From positions 62,001 to 126,000 of the forward strand of contig JAGNKU010000008.1 of the NCBI GenBank assembly GCA_017999985.1: DNA of 64,000 nt, in the 5' to 3' direction. Numbering within the stretch: the stretch's first letter is position 1; every line of letters begins with the position of its first letter. The notes beneath the pieces are model-generated. The model was not told the DNA's origin, did no database searches, and was given only the letters and a program-made list of their open reading frames with translations. Below, piece after piece: positions 30,575-42,689 of the stretch. The translations under genes were made by a program, and so were the position numbers. This DNA is from Phycisphaerae bacterium. Lineage in GTDB: Bacteria; Planctomycetota; Phycisphaerae; UBA1845; Fen-1342.

Positions 30575-31096
30575 GTGAATGCCGACCTCGCCCGCGATTT
30601 CACGCAGCACGCGAGCACCAAGCTCCGCGAGCAACTCGGTCAGATCACGCGCTGCGCCGAACTGCTCAGTCCCGCCGAAATCTGGCACCGCGCCAACGCC
30701 CATACCAACAGCGTCGGCAACCTGATCCTCCACCTGACCGGCAACGTGCGTCAGTGGCTTATCGCCGGGCTGCACGGCGCAGCCTTCGCGCGGGACCGGC
30801 CGGCGGAATTCGCCGAACGCGGCCCGCTGCCGACCGCGACGATCCTGGCCGGGCTGACGCAGGCGGTCACGGACGGGCTGGCCGTGCTGGCACAGGCGGA
30901 CGGGCCCGCCCTCGCGGCCCGCTACGTAATCCAGGGGTACGACGTCAGCGGACTGGTAGCGGTCACGCACGTCGTCGAGCACTTCTCCGCGCACACCGCC
31001 CAGATCGTGCACATGACCAAGGTGTTCAAGGACGTGGACCTGAGCCTCTACGATGCGCACGGCCACAAGTTGGCCGGGCAGCCCCCCGCACCATGA
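30575..31096 (+). CDS. DinB-fold protein (DUF1572-like)
   Basis: 173 residues from the GTG at 30575 (AAGGAG eight bases upstream). The four-helix DinB fold shows as RDFTQHASTKLREQL ... LSPAEIWHRANAHTNSVGNLILHLTGNVRQWL ... VVEHFSAHTAQIVHM. Conserved His residues (NSVGNLILHL, HVVEHFSAHTAQ) lie at the positions that bind a metal in DinB/MDMPI/BstA-type proteins. Some members are thiol-S-transferases or isomerases that use mycothiol or bacillithiol. It converges with the symporter gene (seven bases) and is close to tandem-GNAT and PIG-L genes. Confidence 0.78.
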   Translation: MNADLARDFTQHASTKLREQLGQITRCAELLSPAEIWHRANAHTNSVGNLILHLTGNVRQWLIAGLHGAAFARDRPAEFAERGPLPTATILAGLTQAVTDGLAVLAQADGPALAARYVIQGYDVSGLVAVTHVVEHFSAHTAQIVHMTKVFKDVDLSLYDAHGHKLAGQPPAP

Positions 31097-31103
31097 CCAC
31101 CGC

Positions 31104-33416
31104 TCAGCACGACGGTCCCTCGCCCCAGCGCCGCTCAGAGAACATCCGCGCCGTCAGCCAGCCCAGCACCGCGCCGACCGCCAGCAGCGCGCAGCCCAGC
31201 CAGCGCGCCGGAATGCGCGGGTCGGGCGTGAACGCGTCGCCGACGATCAGCAGGCCGCTGCCGAACAGCACGCAATAGACCGCGCAGGTGGCGATGAGGA
31301 AGCCGCGCGCGGCCGCCCAGGTCAGCGGTGTCGCACAGCGGAACCCCGGGTCCGTCCGGCGGATTTCGGCCTCGATGTGGCGCCAGCCGGGGCCGCCGGG
31401 CTGCACCTTCCGATAGAACGCGATGAGTTTCTCACGCGCGACGGGTTTCGTCAGGTACGTCACGACCAGGGCCGTGCCGACCGAGTAGGGCACGAGGTAG
31501 AGCAGGTTCAGCGGCAGCGGCTGCTCGATGCCCGCCAGCGCTCCCGGCCACAGCTTGAGCACGATGGGGTAGATCAGCAGGGACACCAGGCAGGCGATCT
31601 CGCTCCAGGCGTTGATCCGCCACCAGAACCAGCGCAGCAGGTAGATCACGCCGATACCGGCGCTGATGGTGCCCAGGAAGAACCAGGCGCCGGAGATCGA
31701 GCTGTAGAACAGGCTCACGCCCAGGCCGATCACCGTGATAGCTACCGTGGCCAACTGGGACACGATGACATAGTGTCGTTCCGATGCGCCGCGGCGCACG
31801 AACGGACGGTAGAAGTCATTCACCAGGTACGACGCCCCAACGTTGAGCTGCGTCGCGATCGTCGACATGTACGCCGCCAGGAACGCCGCCAGCAACAGCC
31901 CCAGCAACCCCGGTGGCAGCACGGCGAGCATCACCCGCACGTAGCCTTCCTCGGCGACGGCCTCCGGCGGATACAGGCCCGTGATGGCGTCGCGCGTGTA
32001 TGGAAACATGACCGCCGCCGCGAAGCCCACGATGATCCACGGCCACATCCGCAGGCAGTAGTGCGCCACCGCGTACCACAGGTAGCCCAGCGCAGCGTGC
32101 CGCTCGTTCTTCGCCGCCAGCATCCGCTGGGCGAAATAGTAGCCGCCGTCGCTGAATTGCGTGGCATAGGAATAGATCAGAATAAAGGCCAGGAAGTGAC
32201 TCCAGGGCATGAGGTCCAGGTCGCTCGCGCCGGCGCTGGGCAGCAGGTTGGACATGCCGCGCGCCCGCTCGACCGAGTAGATGTCCGCCATCTGCTGGAG
32301 CGTGGCGTCGAGCCCGCCGAGCTTGCCGACGGCGAGCACGGCGAGGAACACGCAGCCGCCCATCGCGATCCAGAACTGGACGAAGTCCGTCACCATGACG
32401 CCCCACAGGCCCGAGATCACGGTGTAGCCGCTCACGATGAGGAATAGCAGCAACAGAATCCGCAGCTTGTTGACCCCGGCAATCGCGAGGTCCACGTTGC
32501 GCAGCAGCGCCAGCGCCGCCGGTGGCTCGAATTCGGCGTGCGCCGGTTGCAGGCGCGTCCAGGTGGCGTGCAGGTCGGCCGCGCGCTGGCCCAGGCCGAG
32601 CTTTTCCAGGTAGGGCTCCGCCTGCACGGACGCGACGTACGCCCGCAGCCTGTCAACCTCGTCCGCGGTCGGGGCGCCAGCGCCCGGAGACTGTCGATAT
32701 GCCCCGTTACGCTCGCTGGCATATGTGCAGCGGGCGAAGACCCGCTCGACTTCACGCATGACGCCGGTGCGCTCGGGGCGCTGGAGCAGCCCCCACTCGT
32801 CGTAGTACAGCTTCAGCGGATTGAGCGCGCCCGTCCGCATCGCCGTCCGCGCCTGCGGGGCCAGCTCGTTCGAGAGCGGCGTGTTCAGATACGTCCACAG
32901 CATGGCCTCGTCCACGCCGGCGACGTGCGGGATGTTCGGCAGCGTCAACTGCACGATCTTGGTCATTGCCAGGTTGACCCAGCCCATGATCAGGTTGCCG
33001 TAGACCAGTGCGAAGAAGAGCGCCTTGAACCCGCGCAGCACGGCGGCGGACCGGCCCGAATAGCGCACATCCACCAGCTCGGCGTCCGTCACCAGCGCGG
33101 CCCGCCGCCAGAGTGCCGCGATGAAGAACACGCCCAGCATCGTCACCGGCACCTGGCACCACCAGAACCAGTTCTGCGCCACCCCCTTCGTCACGACCCA
33201 ACCAGCCAGCGTCAGCGGCGTGTCGGCCGCGAACGTCGTCGCGACCATCGACGTGCCCAGCAACCACCACGAAGTCGAGCCGCCCGAGGTGAAGTACTCG
33301 CGCACCGAGCGCCGGGCACGGCGACTGAGCACCACGCCGATGCCAACGGACAGCACGATGAACGCGAGGATAATGAGCCAGTCGATGCGGGCCAGGTGGG
33401 GCGTTACTTCGTTCAT
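31104..33416 (-). CDS. Sodium:solute symporter (SSS family)
   Basis: 770 residues with about 13-14 membrane helices. The family signature regions are visible: an N-terminal SVREYFTSGGSTSWWLLGTSMVATTFAADTPLTLAGW, later ADFVxx-like segments (VMVTDFVQFWIAMGG) and GLLGLLLAAFLAAYMSTIATQLNVGASYL. Compared with 500-600 residue family members it has a long hydrophilic insert (about residues 170-300) between early helices. Substrate is unknown. It is 45 bases downstream of the tandem-GNAT gene and probably belongs to the same unit. Confidence 0.88.
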   Translation of the reverse strand: MNEVTPHLARIDWLIILAFIVLSVGIGVVLSRRARRSVREYFTSGGSTSWWLLGTSMVATTFAADTPLTLAGWVVTKGVAQNWFWWCQVPVTMLGVFFIAALWRRAALVTDAELVDVRYSGRSAAVLRGFKALFFALVYGNLIMGWVNLAMTKIVQLTLPNIPHVAGVDEAMLWTYLNTPLSNELAPQARTAMRTGALNPLKLYYDEWGLLQRPERTGVMREVERVFARCTYASERNGAYRQSPGAGAPTADEVDRLRAYVASVQAEPYLEKLGLGQRAADLHATWTRLQPAHAEFEPPAALALLRNVDLAIAGVNKLRILLLLFLIVSGYTVISGLWGVMVTDFVQFWIAMGGCVFLAVLAVGKLGGLDATLQQMADIYSVERARGMSNLLPSAGASDLDLMPWSHFLAFILIYSYATQFSDGGYYFAQRMLAAKNERHAALGYLWYAVAHYCLRMWPWIIVGFAAAVMFPYTRDAITGLYPPEAVAEEGYVRVMLAVLPPGLLGLLLAAFLAAYMSTIATQLNVGASYLVNDFYRPFVRRGASERHYVIVSQLATVAITVIGLGVSLFYSSISGAWFFLGTISAGIGVIYLLRWFWWRINAWSEIACLVSLLIYPIVLKLWPGALAGIEQPLPLNLLYLVPYSVGTALVVTYLTKPVAREKLIAFYRKVQPGGPGWRHIEAEIRRTDPGFRCATPLTWAAARGFLIATCAVYCVLFGSGLLIVGDAFTPDPRIPARWLGCALLAVGAVLGWLTARMFSERRWGEGPSC

Positions 33417-33461
33417 GACGTCTGCACGGGCCTCCGCGCGCTGCGCCGCTTGGCGCGATTC

Positions 33462-34400
33462 TCAGCCCCGTCGCAATACCACGAACCGCCGCGTCACGCG
33501 CAGTCCGAATCGCTCGTAGAACTGCCGCGCGCGGTCATCGGCCCAGTTGAACCACACGGTGCGGCCGTCCGCCGCCCGGATGCGGCACACGGCCTCGATG
33601 AACAGCTTGGCCCCGACGCGCTGCTGGCGCGCCGCCGGCGCCACGCCAAACGGCCCGAAATGCTCGCCGGTCCATTGGCAGTAGCCGACCACCACGTCGC
33701 CATCGATCGCCACCAGCAACTCGTGCAGCGCCCCACTCTGCACCTTTGCCCGCGCGGCCATGTTCCACGCCCCCGGCAGCGACGCCGCCAGAAACTCGAA
33801 CAGCGCCGGCACGCGCGCCGGCGTCAGCGTCTCGACGCGCACCGACAGTCCGGTCTGCCAAGCCCACGCGCGAAACGCCGCCGCGTCGAAATCCACGACC
33901 TCGCGGGCCATCGAGAACGCCGGCTGGTCCTCCACGAACCCGTGCCGCGCGAACAGCCGCCGCGCTCCGGGGTACGCCTCGTCGTCCGCGCCCGGCATGA
34001 TCGAGCCCGGCGCCGACGTCGGCGTGCCGCACACCCACACACGCTGGCGCCCGTGGCGCGCGAAGAACTCCAGCCCCGCCGCCAGCAACGCCGTCCCCAC
34101 GCCGCGCCGTTGCCGCTCCGGCGTCACCGCCAGGTACGGAATCCACCCATCCGCGGGCTCCAGGCCCAGCCGGTCGTTGGGCCAGTACCGGATGATCGCG
34201 CGCAGAAAGCCGATCGGCTCGTCGCCGTCCGTCGCGACGAAGAAGCCGGAGTCGCCGCCGGGGCGATAGTCGGGGTCCGCCAGGATCGCCGAAACGAAGC
34301 GCCCGGCGCTCATCGGATTGCGCCGCAGCGCGCGGTTCCAGACGGTCAGCACGCCCGGCACATCCGGACCACGGAGCGTGCGAATGGCGATCGCGCCCAT
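33462..34400 (-). CDS. Tandem GNAT acetyltransferase (paralogue 1)
   Basis: 312 residues carrying two GNAT domains in tandem. The first has motif A around PERQRRGVGTALLAAGLEF and the second a more degenerate copy around AARQQRVGAKLFIEAV. Between them lies MAREVVDFD. It closely resembles the protein at 35161-36102 along the whole length (WNRALRR, GWIPYLAV, VWVCG, GYCQWTGEHFGPFGV, VWFNWADD). Tandem-GNAT proteins of 300-320 residues include mycothiol synthase MshD. Start at the ATG at 34400 with GGGAG upstream. Acyl acceptor is unknown. Confidence 0.82.
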   Translation of the reverse strand: MGAIAIRTLRGPDVPGVLTVWNRALRRNPMSAGRFVSAILADPDYRPGGDSGFFVATDGDEPIGFLRAIIRYWPNDRLGLEPADGWIPYLAVTPERQRRGVGTALLAAGLEFFARHGRQRVWVCGTPTSAPGSIMPGADDEAYPGARRLFARHGFVEDQPAFSMAREVVDFDAAAFRAWAWQTGLSVRVETLTPARVPALFEFLAASLPGAWNMAARAKVQSGALHELLVAIDGDVVVGYCQWTGEHFGPFGVAPAARQQRVGAKLFIEAVCRIRAADGRTVWFNWADDRARQFYERFGLRVTRRFVVLRRG

Positions 34401-34422
34401 GGCAACTCCCGCCAGCGGCGGC

Positions 34423-35157
34423 TCAGAAGATCAGCACCGGCTCCGTGGCAATCGGGAAGTAATCGACTTTCCGCTTGCGCGAGATCGGCGGCAGGCTGAC
34501 CGCGACCGCGTATTTCACGCCGACTTCCGCCCCGCGCTGCGCCGCCAGCCCGGTGTAGTAGTGCAGATAGTCGAACGAAATCTCCCCGCGCAGCAGCTCG
34601 TGCTCCCGGCACGCCGCCACCCACGTATCGAACACCGCGCTCACATCGACCCACAGGTCGGGGTGATAGTCCTCGCGGTCCTCCCAGTTCTCGAGGTAGT
34701 ACAGCCCGCGCACCAGGTGTGCCGGCTGCGCCCGCTCGATCCCCGGCAAGGCCGCCAGAAACCCGCCCTCCATCGTGATCTCGTACGCCGCCCGATGATC
34801 GCGGTGAAATGACCCGCGCCAATGCGTGAGCACGATGTCCGGCCGAAGCTGGCGGATGAGGTCACACATCTCGTGAATCGTCGCCTGGTCCGCGTGCAGC
34901 TCGCCGTCGGGATGGTCCAGCACGATGCAGTCGGCCGCGCCCAGGATTCTCGCCGTCGCTTCGGCCTCCCGAATCCGCTGCTGCCGATACTCACGCACGT
35001 CCTTCTGCGGATTGCCCTTCTCGCCCGCGGTCAGGTGCAGCATCGTCGCCTTGTGACCCGCCGCCGCGTATTTCGCCACCAGCAGGCCGGCCGTGATCTC
35101 CGCATCGCCGATGTGGGCGCCGATCGCCAGCACGTGTTGCTTCTTGTCAGCCGCCAT
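34423..35157 (-). CDS. PIG-L family deacetylase
   Basis: 244 residues of the LmbE/PIG-L family, which includes MshB and BshB, the deacetylases of mycothiol and bacillithiol precursors. The zinc motif reads AHIGDAE: the first Asp of the usual AHPDDxE, the catalytic base in MshB, is Gly, while the metal-binding second Asp remains. The second His is in HRDHRAAY and further residues in LDHPDGEL. So the protein may be less active or use another base. It lies between two tandem-GNAT paralogues, four bases from the upstream one, as one transcription unit. Confidence 0.82.
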   Translation of the reverse strand: MAADKKQHVLAIGAHIGDAEITAGLLVAKYAAAGHKATMLHLTAGEKGNPQKDVREYRQQRIREAEATARILGAADCIVLDHPDGELHADQATIHEMCDLIRQLRPDIVLTHWRGSFHRDHRAAYEITMEGGFLAALPGIERAQPAHLVRGLYYLENWEDREDYHPDLWVDVSAVFDTWVAACREHELLRGEISFDYLHYYTGLAAQRGAEVGVKYAVAVSLPPISRKRKVDYFPIATEPVLIF

Positions 35158-35160
35158 CGC

Positions 35161-36102
35161 TTACAAGTCCTTCCGCAGAATCGCAAACCGCCGCGTCGGC
35201 CGCAGGCCGAACCGCGCGTAGAACCGCGCCGCGCCTTCATCCGCCCAGTTGAACCACACGCTCCGCCCGTCCGCGGCCCGTATTCGCCGCACCGCCTCGA
35301 CAAACAGCTTCGCCCCGATCTTCTGGCTGCGCTGTGACGCGACCACGCCGAACGGGCCGAAATGCTCGCCCTCCCACTGGCAGTAGCCAACGATCTGCCC
35401 CGCCCGCGACGCGATCAACACCTCATGCAGCGCCCCGCTCCGAATCTTCGCCCGCGCCGCCATGTTCCAGTCGCCCGGAAACGCCTCGGCCAGGAACGCG
35501 AGAAAGTCCGGCACCCGCGCTGGCGACAACTCCGCGACCTCGATCTCGCGTCCGACGTCCCACGCCTGCCGGTGATACGCGTCCACGTCGAAATCGACCG
35601 CCTCGCGGGACATCGCGACCGGCTCATGATCCACGACGAAGCCCGCCTTCGTAAACAGCACCAGCGCACCGGGGTATGCGTCGCGATCGACCCCGGGGAA
35701 TACGTAGCCCGGTGCCGAGCCCGTGTTGCCGCACACCCACACCCGGCGCCGGCCCGCCGCGCGCAGGTAATTCAGCGCCGCCTCCAACAGCGCCCGCCCC
35801 ACCCCCTGCCGCTGCTGATCCGGATCGACTGCCAGCACCGGAATCCAGCCGTGCTCCGGCTCGATGCCGAGACGATCGTTCGGATAACGCCGGATGATCG
35901 CGCGCGCAAACCCCACCGGCGTGCCGCCGCGTGTCGCTACGAAGAATCCGCACTCCGGCCCTGGCCAATAGTCCGGATCGCCAAACAGCCACGCACGCAG
36001 CCGCCCCGGATTGATCGGATCCCGCCGCAGCGCCCGGTTCCAGATCGTGCCGACGGCGTCCAGATCGGCCCCGGTGAACGCGCGGATCTCTGACTTGGCC
36101 AT
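35161..36102 (-). CDS. Tandem GNAT acetyltransferase (paralogue 2)
   Basis: 313 residues from the ATG at 36102 (GAGAGG eight bases upstream). Two GNAT domains: DPDQQRQGVGRALLEAALNYL in the first half and SQRSQKIGAKLFVEAVRRI in the second. A clear paralogue of the protein at 33462-34400, sharing runs such as NMAARAK.RSGALHE and EHFGPFGV. Duplication of a gene on both sides of a PIG-L gene suggests two different acylation steps, or functional divergence. It follows the lipoprotein gene after five bases. Confidence 0.82.
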   Translation of the reverse strand: MAKSEIRAFTGADLDAVGTIWNRALRRDPINPGRLRAWLFGDPDYWPGPECGFFVATRGGTPVGFARAIIRRYPNDRLGIEPEHGWIPVLAVDPDQQRQGVGRALLEAALNYLRAAGRRRVWVCGNTGSAPGYVFPGVDRDAYPGALVLFTKAGFVVDHEPVAMSREAVDFDVDAYHRQAWDVGREIEVAELSPARVPDFLAFLAEAFPGDWNMAARAKIRSGALHEVLIASRAGQIVGYCQWEGEHFGPFGVVASQRSQKIGAKLFVEAVRRIRAADGRSVWFNWADEGAARFYARFGLRPTRRFAILRKDL

Positions 36103-36107
36103 CGCGG

Positions 36108-37061
36108 CTACCTCTCCGCCAACACTTCCTGCACGATCTGCAGCACCGCCGCGTGACACGCCGGATACTGCGCCAGGTAACGCAAGTCATCCGGCTGAAT
36201 CGCGAAACTGCCGGGTTCGCGCGTGCCGACCGCATCCCCCGTCGCTTCATCCCAGTTCATCCGCGTCTGGTCGCGCCACCGCCGCAGCGCTGTCCGGATC
36301 CCGTCCGTGTCGCCGGTCACCCACAGCCAGTAGAGCAGCCCGCGCGGATTGCCACGCCAGCCCACAAGAACCTGCTTTGCATAAAACCCCGTGTCCGCCT
36401 TCATCTCCGGCGTGAGCTTCGTCCAATCCCCGTCCGGCGGCGTCGGCAGCACCGACTGGTCCCACGCGCCGCGGCCGATCCAGCCCCGCACATACGCCTC
36501 CAGCCAGAAATAGCGCTGAATCCCGTACGGCCCGCGCGCTCCGTACTTCGCGTACGCCTCCTGGATGTAGTCCGCGATCATCCGCACCTGGATTTCGGGA
36601 TGATCGCGGCAGTACGCGTACACCTGCGCATCCGACCAGTCCCGCTGCACGCCGTAGGGCAACCCATACTTCGTCTTCACATTCGTGACGGTAATCTGCC
36701 ACGGCCCGATCGTCGTCTGGCCGATCATGTCCTTCGTCTCTTCGGCGGTCGTCTTGCCCCAGCGCCGCTCGGGGGCGTTGAACAGCCCGCGGCCCTCCTG
36801 GATCGCCTCGACCCACAAGTCCTCCAGCCCGACCAGCGGCCACTTGCCTTCGGCCCGGCCCGCCCGCAGCGTCCGGTACGCCGTATCCAGCACGATCCGT
36901 CCGCCGGGGCCGAAATCGCTGCTCTGCGCGAGAATCGCCGCGTAGCGCCGGTCGAGATCGTCGAGCCCGGCCCGATTCACTTCGGGCTGCGGGGCGCGAC
37001 ACCCACCGCACGCGATCGCCACACCGACCACCGCCACGCTTGCGCAGAGAATCTGACGCAT
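36108..37061 (-). CDS. Lipoprotein of unknown function, first gene of the GNAT/PIG-L unit
   Basis: 317 residues from the ATG at 37061 (AAAGGAGG nine bases upstream). Signal and lipobox MRQILCASVAVVGVAIACGGC. The mature protein is helical, beginning LDDLDRRYAAILAQSS, with WEAxx-like central parts (AIQEGRGLFNAPERRWGKTTAEE), many Trp/Tyr (KYGLPYGVQRDW, WIGRGAWDQSV) and PYGIQRYFWLEAYVRGW. It may be a helical enzyme such as a lysozyme-like protein, but no catalytic motif is certain. It is divergent to the NAGPA-type gene, sharing a 135-base upstream region. Confidence 0.55.
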   Translation of the reverse strand: MRQILCASVAVVGVAIACGGCRAPQPEVNRAGLDDLDRRYAAILAQSSDFGPGGRIVLDTAYRTLRAGRAEGKWPLVGLEDLWVEAIQEGRGLFNAPERRWGKTTAEETKDMIGQTTIGPWQITVTNVKTKYGLPYGVQRDWSDAQVYAYCRDHPEIQVRMIADYIQEAYAKYGARGPYGIQRYFWLEAYVRGWIGRGAWDQSVLPTPPDGDWTKLTPEMKADTGFYAKQVLVGWRGNPRGLLYWLWVTGDTDGIRTALRRWRDQTRMNWDEATGDAVGTREPGSFAIQPDDLRYLAQYPACHAAVLQIVQEVLAER

Positions 37062-37196: not shown

Positions 37197-38819
37197 ATGC
37201 TCACACGCACACGCCCGTTCGTCGTCGGATTCTGCCTGGCCGCCGTTCGCAGCACCGCGCTGGCCCAATGGACGCCGGCCGCACCCGGCATCGACTACCA
37301 GGAATTCATCGTCGCAGGCCCCAACAACGTCTACGTCGCCCGCATGGACCGCGGCAACCTGGATTGCACCATCGACAGCATGATCGCGCAGGGCCGGCTC
37401 ACCGGCGGCACCGAGACCGTCAGCAGCATGGCCACGCGCCACGAGGACGCCATCGGCTACTGGGGCCAGACCTGGGGCACGCGCTATGACCTCGTCGTCG
37501 CCGTCAATGGTGATTTCTACAGCAGCGGCATTCCGACCGGCGGGCAGATTTCCGGCGGCTGGTACGCCAAGCGCTTCGGCGATCTGGGCGGCGCCAGCGG
37601 CTTCGCCTGGCAGCTGGACCGTGACGCGTTCATCGGAGAATGCGTCTATCACATCCCCAGCAAGCAAAAGGTGACCTATCTCGCCACGGGACAGTCGCAG
37701 GAACTCGACGGCCTCAACCGGACGCGCGGCAGCAACGAGCTGATCCTCTACACGCACCACTACGACCTAACGACGCTCACGGACAACAGCGGCGCGGAAG
37801 TGCTCGTGAAGTTGTCACGCCCGGCGATGATCCTGCCGCCGCCGTCAGGCGCCGTTGGCACCGTAATCGAGATCCGGCCTAATGCCGGCTCCACACTTGT
37901 CCCGTTCGATCACGTCGTGTTGTCAGCCCAGGGCTCCGCCGCAACCACGCTGCTGGCGAACGTGACCGTCGGCGCCGAGGTGCGCATCGCCCAGGAGATC
38001 ACGCACTACGAGCACGATTGCAGCACGCCGTATGCGTGGGACTGGACCAAGACTTACTCCAGCATCGGCGGCAGTTTCCACTTCCTGAAGGACGGCGTCA
38101 TTCAGCCGTCGAGCGACCCCGGGGCGACGCAGCGCCACCCGCGCACCGCCATCGCGTTCGACAGCAGCTACATCTACTTCATCGTCGTCGACGGCCGTTC
38201 GACGCAAAGCGTCGGCATGAGCATGACCGAGCTGGGCACGTTCTGCATCGATTACCTCGCGGCGGTCGAGGGTCTGAACCAGGACGGCGGCGGATCATCG
38301 ACGATGTGGCTCAATGGCACGGTGATGAACGTGCCTTCGGACGGCAGCGAACGCGCCGTCGCCAACGGGCTGTTCATGGCCACGGTCGCGCCGGTGGAGC
38401 AGTCCACGCGGTTCACGACCGGCGCCCTGGTGCGTGCCACCGGCAGCGCGGCCCTGCGTATCGGACCGGGCATCAACTACAACTCCTCCGGGTCGGTCGC
38501 CGCCAACACCGAAGGTGTCGTTCTCGATCACACCCTGAATGGGCTGCGCGCGTCGAATACGCACTGGTGGTATTGCGCGTTTCCGAGCGGCAATGGCTGG
38601 GTCGCCGACTCCAGCCTGCTGGAGAGTGGCTGCGCGGGCGATTACACCGGCGACGGGCGCGTGGACGCCGCGGATCTGCCGCCGCTGGCGTACTGCCTGC
38701 GTGGCCCAGGGCTGATGTACAACCCCGGGACGTTCTGCCTGGGCGGCGACAGTGATGCCGATCGCGACGTGGACGCGCACGACCTGGCGGTGATTCAAAC
38801 GTGCATCACGGCGCCGTGA
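37197..38819 (+). CDS. Secreted phosphodiester glycosidase (NAGPA) domain protein with SH3-like and dockerin-like tails
   Basis: 540 residues from the ATG at 37197 (AGGAGG five bases upstream). A signal peptide (VVGFCLAAVRSTALAQ) leads to a NAGPA/DUF2233 domain. Its hallmarks are the early VARMDRGNLD, NGDFYSSG, the middle RHPRTAIAFD and the late EGLNQDGGGSSTMWLNG. Then comes an SH3-like segment (VRATGSAALRIGPGINY ... WWYCAF) at about residues 410-475, and finally two calcium-binding EF-hand-type repeats (GDYTGDGRVDAADL, SDADRDVDAHDLAVIQ). The DNA around it has the same codon style. The likely activity is cleavage of a sugar-1-phosphate diester in an exopolymer, though family members also act on glycans or peptidoglycan. 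Confidence 0.85.
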   Translation: MLTRTRPFVVGFCLAAVRSTALAQWTPAAPGIDYQEFIVAGPNNVYVARMDRGNLDCTIDSMIAQGRLTGGTETVSSMATRHEDAIGYWGQTWGTRYDLVVAVNGDFYSSGIPTGGQISGGWYAKRFGDLGGASGFAWQLDRDAFIGECVYHIPSKQKVTYLATGQSQELDGLNRTRGSNELILYTHHYDLTTLTDNSGAEVLVKLSRPAMILPPPSGAVGTVIEIRPNAGSTLVPFDHVVLSAQGSAATTLLANVTVGAEVRIAQEITHYEHDCSTPYAWDWTKTYSSIGGSFHFLKDGVIQPSSDPGATQRHPRTAIAFDSSYIYFIVVDGRSTQSVGMSMTELGTFCIDYLAAVEGLNQDGGGSSTMWLNGTVMNVPSDGSERAVANGLFMATVAPVEQSTRFTTGALVRATGSAALRIGPGINYNSSGSVAANTEGVVLDHTLNGLRASNTHWWYCAFPSGNGWVADSSLLESGCAGDYTGDGRVDAADLPPLAYCLRGPGLMYNPGTFCLGGDSDADRDVDAHDLAVIQTCITAP

Positions 38820-38926: not shown

Positions 38927-40339
38927 TCACTTGCCCCCCGTCAGCACCGCCACGAACGGATTGATGTCGCCGAAGCCGACTTCGCCGTTGGCATCCAGAT
39001 CACCATGCGGCGGCGGGCAATCCGGGTACATCTGTGCATACGCCGGCGGATTGCTCAGGACCAGCACAAATGGATTGATGTCGCCGAAGTCGATCGTCCC
39101 GCTGCAATCCAGATCACCGAACGGGATTTCGTACGCGCCCATATCCACGACGAACCGCGCAATCCGCGGATGCCCGTCGAGGTCGAGCGAGCCGGCGGGC
39201 ACAACGCTGTTGTCGCCAACGTCGAGACACGGCGAATCGAACGCCAGCCGGTAGTCGTTGTCCCCCACGGTATTCGGATCATCATCCGGCCCGTCCGGAT
39301 CGCGGAACAGCGGGTCGGCGTTAATGTTACCGTCGCCGCTCCAGCCACCCTGGGCGTTGCAGTGGGTGAGCAGAGTGTTGACCCCCGTATCGACCGAGAT
39401 CTCCTGTGGCGTGTCAGCCCAGAGGATGCAGTTGGTTAGCGTCGGGCTGGATGCGTAGTAGCAGAACATGCCGCCGCCCGAACCGGCTTCGTTGCTGGTG
39501 ATTGTGCAGTTGATCAACGTCGGGCCGGAGTAGTAGTCGCACCACACGCCGCCGCCGATGGCCGTGTTGCCGGCGATCGTGCAGTTGGTCAGCATCGGCA
39601 TGGAGTAGTCGTCGAAGAACACGCCGCCGCCACAACTGATGGTGATGTTCCCCGCGATCGTGCAGCCGGTCAGGGTCGGACTGGACCTGTCGCAGTACAC
39701 GCCGCCGCCGTTGCTGCTGCACGTGTTGCTCGTGATCGAACAACGGACCAGCGTCGGACTGGAAAAGTGGCAGAACACGCCGCCACCGTTGATGCTGGCC
39801 ATGTTGCTGGCGATCGCGCAGTCGGTCAGCGTCGGGTTGGAGGAGGAGGAGCAGACCACAGCGCCCCCGTAGCCGCGGGCGAGGTTACCCTGGATCGTGC
39901 AGTCGGTCAGCGTCGGGCTGGCGTCGTATACGCATACGCCGCCGCCCGTGCGGGCAGTATTGCCCGTGACCGCACAACTGATGAGCATCGGGCTGGAGGA
40001 GTAGCAGTATACGCCACCGCCGTTGCCGTTAGTCACGTTTCCGCTTCGTATCGTCAAGCCCTGGACAATTGAGTCTGCTCCTTCGCTGTTGTGAAAATAG
40101 AACCCCCGCCCGCTCCCCTCGCAGTCAATGACGCATGTGGCCGGGTCGCCGCTCGCCGAACGGACCGTGATCGCCAGCCCGTGAAGTTCGAGGCTCGTGT
40201 TACCGACGCCCGTATACGTGCCGTCGGCGATGATGACCTCGTCACCGGCGAGGCAGGCGTCGATCGCCGCCTGGAGCGTCGCGTACTCGCCCGGCACGTG
40301 CCGCTCCGCCGCCGCCGCGGAGGCGACACACAGAGCCAC
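38927..40339 (-). CDS. Right-handed beta-helix protein with FGDINPFV C-terminal module
   Basis: About 470 residues with a parallel beta-helix of around twelve turns (repeating GGGVYC..SSPTLTNCTI.GN-type units of about 23 residues), starting from EYATLQAAIDACLAGDEVII. The C-terminus carries two dockerin-like units, DLDCSGTIDFGDINPFV and DLDANGEVGFGDINPFV, the first followed by LVLSNPPAY. The start is uncertain. The only in-frame start is a GTG at 40339 inside an octamer array, giving a truncated signal peptide (MALCVASAAAA). A GTG at 40362 in another frame would give MLRVFAPL; removing one 8-bp unit would join it in frame (see findings). Confidence 0.75.
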   Translation of the reverse strand: MALCVASAAAAERHVPGEYATLQAAIDACLAGDEVIIADGTYTGVGNTSLELHGLAITVRSASGDPATCVIDCEGSGRGFYFHNSEGADSIVQGLTIRSGNVTNGNGGGVYCYSSSPMLISCAVTGNTARTGGGVCVYDASPTLTDCTIQGNLARGYGGAVVCSSSSNPTLTDCAIASNMASINGGGVFCHFSSPTLVRCSITSNTCSSNGGGVYCDRSSPTLTGCTIAGNITISCGGGVFFDDYSMPMLTNCTIAGNTAIGGGVWCDYYSGPTLINCTITSNEAGSGGGMFCYYASSPTLTNCILWADTPQEISVDTGVNTLLTHCNAQGGWSGDGNINADPLFRDPDGPDDDPNTVGDNDYRLAFDSPCLDVGDNSVVPAGSLDLDGHPRIARFVVDMGAYEIPFGDLDCSGTIDFGDINPFVLVLSNPPAYAQMYPDCPPPHGDLDANGEVGFGDINPFVAVLTGGK

Positions 40340-41198: not shown

Positions 41199-42689
41199 AT
41201 GGCCGAATCACGAATCGAACGCGACTCGATGGGCGAGATGGCGGTTCCCGCGGCGGCGTTGTGGGGGGCTTCGACGCAGCGGGCGGTGCTGAATTTTCCG
41301 GTTAGCGGCTACCGCTTCGGCCGGCGGTTCATCCGGGCGCTGGGGTTGGTGAAGTACGCCGCCGCGGAGGCGAACAAGCGGCTGGGCAAGCTCGATCCAC
41401 ACGTCGGGGCGCTGATTCAGCAAGCGGCGCGCGAGGTCATCGACGGGCGGCTCGACGATCATTTCGTGCTGGACATCTTTCAGACGGGGTCGGGCACCAG
41501 CACGAATATGAATGCGAATGAGGTCATTGCGCGGCGGGCGGGGCAGATCGGGGAGAGGCACGAAGGCACGGAATCCAGAAGGCACGAAGGGGGGGCGGGG
41601 ATGAGGGAACAGGGAACGGGGAACAGGGAACAGGCCGTTCCCACGCCGCACATTCACCCCAACGACCACGTCAACATGGGGCAGTCTTCCAATGACGTGA
41701 TTCCGACCGCGATGCATGTCGCCATTGTCGAGGCGCTGCATGGCGACCTCATGCCGGCACTGCATGGGCTGCAGAAGGCGCTCGCGGCGAAGGCGCAGGA
41801 GTTCGACGCGATCGTCAAGATCGGGCGGACCCACCTGATGGACGCGACGCCGATCCGGCTGGGACAGGAATTCAGCGGGTACGCGAGCCAGATTGCGCAC
41901 GCCGACCGGCGAATCATGCAGAAAATCATCATCCTGCGCGAGTTGCCGATCGGCGGGACGGCGGTCGGGACGGGCATCAACACGCATCCGCAGTTCGCGA
42001 AGCTCGTCTGCGAGATTCTGAACCACGAGACGCGCGAGGCGTTCCACGAGGCAGCGAACCATTTCGAGGCGCAGGCGGCGAAGGATGCGGTCGTGGCGGC
42101 GTCGGGCGTGCTGCGGACCATCGCGGTCAGCCTGACGAAGGTCGCGAACGACATTCGCTGGCTCGGCAGCGGGCCGCGCTGCGGGTTGGGCGAGCTGCGG
42201 CTGCCGGCGACGCAGCCGGGCAGCTCGATCATGCCGGGCAAGGTGAACCCGGTGATTTGCGAGTCGGTGCTGCAGGTGTGCGCGCAGGTGATCGGGAATG
42301 ACGCGGCGGTGACGTTCGCGGCGGCGATGCTCGGCAATCTCGACCTGCACACGGGGATGCCGGTGATGGCGCACAACATGCTGGAATCGATCCGGCTGCT
42401 GAGCAACGTGTGCCACGTCTTCGCGGACAAGTGCATCCACGGGCTGACGGCGAACACGGAGCGCTGCACGGAGCTGATCGAGCAGTCGCTGGCGATGTGC
42501 ACAAGCCTGGCACCGCTCATCGGCTATGATGCCGCCGCGGCGATTGCGAAGGAAGCGGCCCGGACGGGCAAGACGGTGCGGCAAGTGGCGCTGGAGAAGA
42601 AGGTGCTGGACGAAGCGCGGCTCCGCGAGGTGCTCGATCCGCGGTCGATGACGGAGCCGAGCGATAAGGCGCTGCCGGGGGCGGGGTAA
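41199..42689 (+). CDS. fumC: Class II fumarate hydratase with in-frame repeat insertion
   Basis: 496 residues from the ATG at 41199 (AGGAG five bases upstream). The catalytic His lies in GRTHLMDATP and the flexible signature in GSSIMPGKVNPV. TGSGTSTNMNANEVIA precedes the active-site region. Between RAGQIG and HPNDHVNMGQSS about 26 extra residues appear (GERHEGTESRRHEGG, then MREQGTGNREQ), encoded by four 8-bp and four 7-bp repeats at 41557-41632. FumC proteins have a short loop here, and the frame is kept. The enzyme (fumarate to malate) is iron-free, in contrast to the two-subunit enzyme at the window start. Codon use either side of the insertion looks alike. Confidence 0.9.
   Translation: MAESRIERDSMGEMAVPAAALWGASTQRAVLNFPVSGYRFGRRFIRALGLVKYAAAEANKRLGKLDPHVGALIQQAAREVIDGRLDDHFVLDIFQTGSGTSTNMNANEVIARRAGQIGERHEGTESRRHEGGAGMREQGTGNREQAVPTPHIHPNDHVNMGQSSNDVIPTAMHVAIVEALHGDLMPALHGLQKALAAKAQEFDAIVKIGRTHLMDATPIRLGQEFSGYASQIAHADRRIMQKIIILRELPIGGTAVGTGINTHPQFAKLVCEILNHETREAFHEAANHFEAQAAKDAVVAASGVLRTIAVSLTKVANDIRWLGSGPRCGLGELRLPATQPGSSIMPGKVNPVICESVLQVCAQVIGNDAAVTFAAAMLGNLDLHTGMPVMAHNMLESIRLLSNVCHVFADKCIHGLTANTERCTELIEQSLAMCTSLAPLIGYDAAAAIAKEAARTGKTVRQVALEKKVLDEARLREVLDPRSMTEPSDKALPGAG
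41557..41632. repeat. Octamer and heptamer arrays inside fumC
   Basis: Units of 8 bp (GGCACGAA, GGCACGGA, ATCCAGAA, GGCACGAA; 41557-41588) are followed after a G-run by four heptamers (GGGAACA, GGGAACG, GGGAACA, GGGAACA; 41605-41632). They encode an Arg/Glu/Gly-rich loop at residues 120-145 of FumC. The total length preserves the reading frame. Confidence 0.85.

Follow-up and report, generated by a model that had tools for sequence, protein, structure and literature searches.

The fungal enzyme RmNag acetylates glucosamine; its residue Y842 is required for activity, and Trp735, Trp835 and Asp834 line its sugar pocket (PMC4680927). In PIG-L deacetylases, the HXD1D2 motif provides the general base (D1) and a zinc ligand (D2) (PMC4101496). 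Relatives of both enzymes are encoded together in the operon described here, which lies on the minus strand of a 64,000-nucleotide stretch of DNA from a Phycisphaerae bacterium (assembly GCA_017999985.1, contig JAGNKU010000008.1, positions 62,001 to 126,000; hereafter the window). The operon combines two GlmA-like tandem GNAT proteins with a PIG-L-fold protein that carries a glycine at the D1 position, and we propose, with a probability of roughly 0.65, that it serves to salvage amino sugars of the peptidoglycan type. We further infer that its substrate belongs to the class of N-modified peptidoglycan amino sugars. The genes of the operon, and two motifs within the PIG-L gene, are as follows.

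36108-37061, minus strand: orphan protein of family 'C31', the first gene of the operon, with its start set at MRQIL... (37061)
35161-36102, minus strand: tandem GNAT 2, 313 amino acids, matched by several Pfam GNAT models over two stretches each; GlmA-like glucosamine/glucosaminide N-acetyltransferase family
34423-35157, minus strand: PIG-L-fold metalloenzyme of the HxGD clade (PF02585, 7.6e-27)
35104-35115, minus strand: H15-I16-G17-D18 of the PIG-L protein; by alignment the zinc ligands His and Asp are retained and Gly17 stands in place of the general-base Asp
34678-34692, minus strand: E156-N157-W158-E159-D160 of the PIG-L protein, a signature of the HxGD clade that is invariant in 28 of 28 alignment rows
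33462-34400, minus strand: tandem GNAT 1, 312 amino acids, a paralogue of GNAT 2, matched by several Pfam GNAT models over two stretches each
31104-33416, minus strand: SSS (SLC5-like) Na+/solute symporter of the sugar-transporter type (PF00474, 5e-33)

Along the minus strand, from 37061 down to 31104, the order is C31, GNAT 2, PIG-L, GNAT 1 and symporter. The intergenic gaps given by the coordinates are 5, 3, 22 and 45 nucleotides, and with such short gaps the five genes look like one operon. Pfam assigned all of them except C31. A preliminary description of this DNA had noticed a PIG-L gene between two tandem-GNAT paralogues, and this was borne out by Pfam and by the 59% identity of the two GNATs to each other. 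The closest named relatives of the PIG-L gene are Phycisphaerae metagenome-assembled genomes (MAGs). The symporter finds its best matches in the PDB in vSGLT and SGLT1 (1e-20), and symporters also adjoin the GNAT/PIG-L pair in relatives.

We examined the co-occurrence of the two families across 200 related genomes, a check that the preliminary description had proposed. The GNAT (E < 1e-100) and the HxGD PIG-L protein were both present in the same 12 genomes, and the GNAT was found in none of the other 188, so the arrangement exceeds chance. PIG-L orthologues were equally well delimited, with 12 genomes at 78-100% identity and the next proteins at 30-36%. Since the carriers are spread over three families, kinship alone does not explain the co-occurrence. 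Moreover, two carriers (G042 and G054) hold GNAT and PIG-L on separate contigs, so the link is functional and not one of mere neighbourhood. In both of these genomes the HxGD PIG-L gene stands beside an M3 peptidase gene (L049 and L048, respectively), and the GNAT gene lies on the other contig near beta-helix and fn3 proteins. Outside Planctomycetota, GNAT and PIG-L are adjacent in most loci.

The genes that accompany the pair outside Planctomycetota, counted by simple scripted gene calling on contigs of limited length, belong largely to cell-wall sugar use. The operon-like Oscillospiraceae cluster with the pair contains an RpiR/SIS regulator, a sugar ATP-binding cassette (ABC) transporter, MurQ (5e-97 to PDB 4s12), an esterase, AnmK, NamZ, GH3 and a BadF-type kinase, and another Oscillospirales group shows the order MurQ-BadF-GNAT-PIGL-betaLactamase-NamZ. 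A Treponema locus (L092) has MurQ, NamZ, RpiR and GH3 with the pair; a Defluviitaleaceae locus (L097) has RpiR, NamZ and GH3; a Tenericutes locus (L088) has an M19 dipeptidase, an LD-carboxypeptidase and a beta-lactamase; and a Sumerlaeia locus (L074) reads GNAT-PIGL-NamZ. Where the same scan returned a PIG-L protein from beyond the clade (29 loci), a counted gene was present only at L122 (motif HPDE). At the genome level, the exo-muramidase NamZ was found in 44 of the 200 relatives, in 12 of 12 carriers versus 32 of 188 others (Fisher p = 3e-9, kinship ignored). Of 16 distant genomes tested, archaeal ones among them, 14 have it too.

Outside Planctomycetota, the pair keeps the gene company of the described NamZ-MurQ-AnmK operons for salvage of N-acetylmuramic acid (MurNAc), and a sodium symporter as importer is likewise shared with Tannerella. 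Unlike those operons, the loci here carry the GNAT/HxGD PIG-L pair, of which we found no description in the literature on PIG-L/LmbE genes in MurNAc operons, a limited collection that leaves its absence unproven. The Tannerella MurNAc importer MurT is of the sodium-symporter type; the same paper elsewhere calls the importer a major facilitator superfamily (MFS) protein (PMC5790795). On another contig of the window's own genome, a wall-utilisation region (G000:C1, about 425-449 kb; L160, L155) holds NamZ, an SSF symporter, MurQ, GHL10 hydrolases and a muramoyl-alanine amidase (Amidase_3) within ~25 kb, as well as a transglutaminase/beta-lactamase fusion. Taken with the Tannerella importer, the NamZ, symporter and MurQ genes of this region support an importer role for the operon symporter.

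The neighbouring genes also bear on the possibility that the substrate is free glucosamine or chitosan oligosaccharides and not peptidoglycan, as could be supposed from a symporter of the glucose type and from the activity of RmNag and the Clostridium acetobutylicum enzyme, which acetylate glucosamine. We regard this as improbable, since in several lineages genes specific to muramic acid (MurQ, NamZ, AnmK) lie next to the pair. We also considered the PIG-L protein as a substitute for MurQ and rejected this role: MurQ occurs widely in these Planctomycetota, in genomes that have the module and in those that lack it, and it lies over the cut-off in 8 of the 12 carriers.

Two further occurrences concern organisms at some distance from the window. 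Two archaeal MAGs (L090 and L091; G209 and G210) carry the GNAT/PIG-L pair and NamZ, hinting that archaea use bacterial cell wall, with contamination of the MAGs possible. The genome of Acholeplasma oculi, from a group that has no cell wall, contains a separate cluster (L152) of MurQ, NamZ, GH3, a BadF-like kinase and ABC permeases.

We next consider the proteins themselves. The GNAT family profile matched C. acetobutylicum PDB entries 5kga/5kf1 at 1e-32 over positions 9-307, and the glucosamine N-acetyltransferase region of RmNag (4zm6) at 1e-23. We take 5kf1 and 5kga to be the C. acetobutylicum glucosaminide N-acetyltransferase GlmA; the PDB search labels them 'predicted acetyltransferase'. 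Like GlmA and RmNag, the proteins here are homologous over the full length of the tandem GNAT, with the catalytic Tyr, the Trp pair and an FPGV-type loop in the first domain, and they share the association with NagZ-type GH3 and cell-wall sugar recovery. When aligned to RmNag, GNAT 2 places Y295 at Y842, W212 at W735 and W286 at W835, and Y295 is invariant. Unlike in RmNag, the GNAT is paired with a PIG-L protein, and the sugar-pocket Asp834 is replaced, by N285 in GNAT 2, an Asn shared by the Planctomycetota, and by other residues elsewhere. These alignments make an amino sugar the probable acceptor.

The PIG-L protein departs from its family at the catalytic motif. Throughout its clade, without exception, the HxDD of PIG-L deacetylases is replaced by H[IV]GD, and Gly at the D1 position means that the general base is lost and the zinc site retained. 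His15, Gly17, Asp18, Glu46, Asp84, Arg102, His118, Asp120, His121 and ENWED are invariant in 28 rows. HxGD relatives were found in Sumerlaeota, Oscillospiraceae, Acholeplasmataceae, Spirochaetota, one actinobacterium and two archaea, the distant ones by a contig scan with the pattern GAH[IV]GDAE, which partly selects for the HxGD motif. Yet Gly is also present in all sets found without the pattern, namely the relatives search, the Oscillospirales profile search and loci L072, L074 and L075, which have GGH where the pattern starts and do not match it. In a tree of 75 PIG-L proteins, a single branch with 100/100 support separates the 35 HxGD rows from the rest. Because the zinc site is invariant across domains of life, the sequences argue for active enzymes and not pseudoenzymes.

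The structure model of the PIG-L protein (predicted local distance difference test score, pLDDT, 90) shows the PIG-L/LmbE fold with the His-Asp-His zinc site (H15, D18, H121) and reaches Z 28 to 5cgz/2ixd. BshB and diacetylchitobiose deacetylase, which share this fold and zinc site, match at Z 26-28; the protein differs from them in having Gly for the Asp base, in scoring below the BshB1 cut-off and in the additional ENWED signature. The closest single-sequence PDB match, at 1e-15, is GalB (5cgz), the 4-oxalomesaconate (4-carboxy-2-hydroxymuconate) hydratase. In GalB the general-base Asp is reportedly replaced by Ala, with a Glu activating the metal-bound water and His164 acting as catalytic acid. 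GalB has also lost the base Asp, its alignment showing HSAD, and retains the Glu after strand 2, so that Gly17 and Glu46 of our protein correspond to the lost Asp and to Glu48 of GalB.

These similarities raise the alternative of a hydratase or lyase reaction like that of GalB, for which the PIG-L protein would take an amino-sugar intermediate, either unsaturated or in anhydro form, as its substrate. The best single-sequence match and a joint-best structural match agree with it, but the clade profile ties BshB with GalB in the PDB, and the structure search gives no separation (GalB Z 28.4, BshB Z 27.7-28.4). Furthermore, identity to GalB is 24-27%, the HMMER alignment places about Trp158 at His164, the proposed acid of GalB, and no aromatic-pathway genes were seen nearby. 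We consider a GalB-like reaction rather unlikely.

Turning to the chemistry of a peptidoglycan salvage module, a deacetylase and an acetyltransferase side by side are sensible only if the removed group differs from the added one, and for this reason the targets that we prefer are an acyl group other than acetyl or the spore-cortex muramic delta-lactam. In the proposed route, the symporter would import a cell-wall-derived amino sugar. The PIG-L protein, with zinc held by His15, Asp18 and His121 and with Glu46 activating water instead of the missing Asp, would open or remove a non-acetyl acyl group on the 2-N, for example the muramic delta-lactam, and so expose an amine. The GlmA-like tandem GNAT would then acetylate the freed amine, and the product would enter the ordinary N-acetylglucosamine (GlcNAc)/MurNAc route. 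We put forward such an N-acyl exchange by PIG-L and GNAT tentatively, as possible but short of an even chance, and its muramic delta-lactam version is doubtful. A broader proposal, unlikely as a whole, is that the HxGD clade carries out a reaction undescribed for the fold, lactam opening or unusual N-acyl removal, after which the GNAT restores MurNAc; this would be a missing step by which bacteria and some archaea live on peptidoglycan of the spore cortex or with other N-modifications.

SwsB is a precedent for such altered chemistry: a relative of the CE4 deacetylases, it has lost the catalytic Asp and turned into a cyclase that forms muramic lactam (PMC12444981). SwsB resembles the PIG-L clade as a deacetylase relative without the catalytic Asp, and it handles muramic lactam; unlike the PIG-L protein it has an unrelated fold, and it makes the lactam rather than opening it.

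The simpler possibility is that the PIG-L protein is an ordinary N-deacetylase of GlcNAc, MurNAc or their phosphates, with Glu46 replacing the Asp, that stands in for NagA while the GNAT tunes acetylation. The shared fold with BshB and diacetylchitobiose deacetylase, the invariant zinc ligands and Glu46, and the absence of any clear match to NagA from the genome that contains the window all fit. Nevertheless, the general-base Asp is missing from every clade member, an acetyltransferase for the same group would create a futile cycle, and NagA above the cut-off stands alongside the pair in 11 of 29 carriers, a coexistence that led us to reject a plain NagA substitute. On balance we find an ordinary deacetylase unlikely, if a little less so than the GalB-like hydratase.

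Several observations weigh against the salvage module. The NamZ signal is weaker when counted within each family, NamZ being common there. In the Phycisphaerae loci, MurQ and NamZ are not adjacent to the pair, and the link there is one of genome-wide co-occurrence. An MFS transporter adjoins the pair at one archaeal locus. With Asn in place of RmNag Asp834, the predicted GNAT acceptor is perhaps not glucosamine itself, and the PIG-L protein, lacking the customary base, may instead catalyse hydration as GalB does. Finally, the role of the C31 protein in the operon is unexplained by the salvage model.

PIG-L proteins are routinely annotated as deacetylases, and here a whole clade, spanning Planctomycetota, Sumerlaeota, Bacillota, Mycoplasmatota, Spirochaetota, Actinomycetota and archaea, is without the defining residue. 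Its strict pairing with the GNAT, together with its location in MurNAc operons, suggests that a step in the breakdown of cell-wall sugars has yet to be described. If this is true, gene annotations would be corrected, and there would be hints as to the way in which certain bacteria and archaea exploit peptidoglycan that has been modified.

The preliminary description had instead seen in these genes the hint of a novel low-molecular-weight thiol pathway, since the combination of PIG-L and tandem GNAT bears a superficial likeness to that of MshB and MshD. We scored the thiol families with NCBIfam models and their curated cut-offs. The tandem GNATs, noted there for their MshD length, score 33-37 bits versus an MshD cut-off of 163 and group with glucosaminide N-acetyltransferases; mycothiol synthase was absent from the 35 sequences matched at 1e-4 by the family profile and appeared at 1e-5 with a narrower profile. 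The PIG-L protein gives 28 bits to MshB (cut-off 224), 109.7 of 182.5 bits to BshB1 and 37.7 of 195.25 bits to BshB2. The suggested genome-wide check for BshA, BshC and MshC homologues yielded none above cut-off: BshC had only an 11-bit chance match, the best BshA match reached 94 of 273.7 bits (the related GT4 family MshA was not searched for), and MshC had a 238-bit match versus a cut-off of 485 bits. Because below-cut-off MshC matches occur in all 14 of 14 control genomes, this last match is probably cysteinyl-tRNA synthetase. Thus no searched thiol family rises over its cut-off, there is no cysteine ligase and the GNATs come from a different family, which is largely the outcome, absent thiol genes and non-MshD GNATs, that the preliminary description had itself set against its idea. 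We therefore regard a thiol pathway as extremely improbable. The looser suggestion of that description, a different pathway for an N-acyl metabolite in which the symporter acts as importer, does fit the amino-sugar salvage module.

The same thiol idea had enlisted a DinB-fold gene nearby.

30575-31096, plus strand: DinB-fold/DUF1572 gene (best match DUF1572, 1.5e-9), judged outside the module

The gene is indeed present, with weak MST/DinB/MDMPI matches besides DUF1572. Its partnership did not hold: it is on the opposite strand, convergent to the symporter, and tblastn found no match in 20 extra stretches, including the neighbourhoods of eleven orthologous loci. On this lack of conservation and the opposite, convergent strand we ruled it out as a module partner and judge it an accidental neighbour.

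For the C31 protein, we found no Pfam match and no PDB match. Its N-terminus is secretion- or lipoprotein-like, the signal peptide being judged by eye, and its structure model (pLDDT 60) is too poor for use. A motif raised the suspicion of a lysozyme-like enzyme, which we set aside given the missing Pfam and PDB matches and the poor model, which was not fold-searched. The gene lies upstream of a GNAT in G016, G026, G045, G096 and G103 and at loci L075 (7104-8081) and L076 (4057-5016); the family also occurs at L139 (9579-10598) and L140 (7901-8854), and without the module in G001, G034 and G175.

Elsewhere in the window, 37197-38819 (plus strand) encodes a secreted phosphodiester glycosidase-like protein (NAGPA, PF09992) and 38927-40339 (minus strand) a repeat-rich protein, and the two products have similar Asp-rich, dockerin-like C-terminal tails, as judged by eye. 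In a fumarase-like gene at 41229-42689 (plus strand), an in-frame stretch of about 34 codons at 41547-41649 (IGERHEGTESRRHEGGAGMREQGTGNREQAVPTP) breaks the fumC-like sequence and reads like an inserted repeat element.

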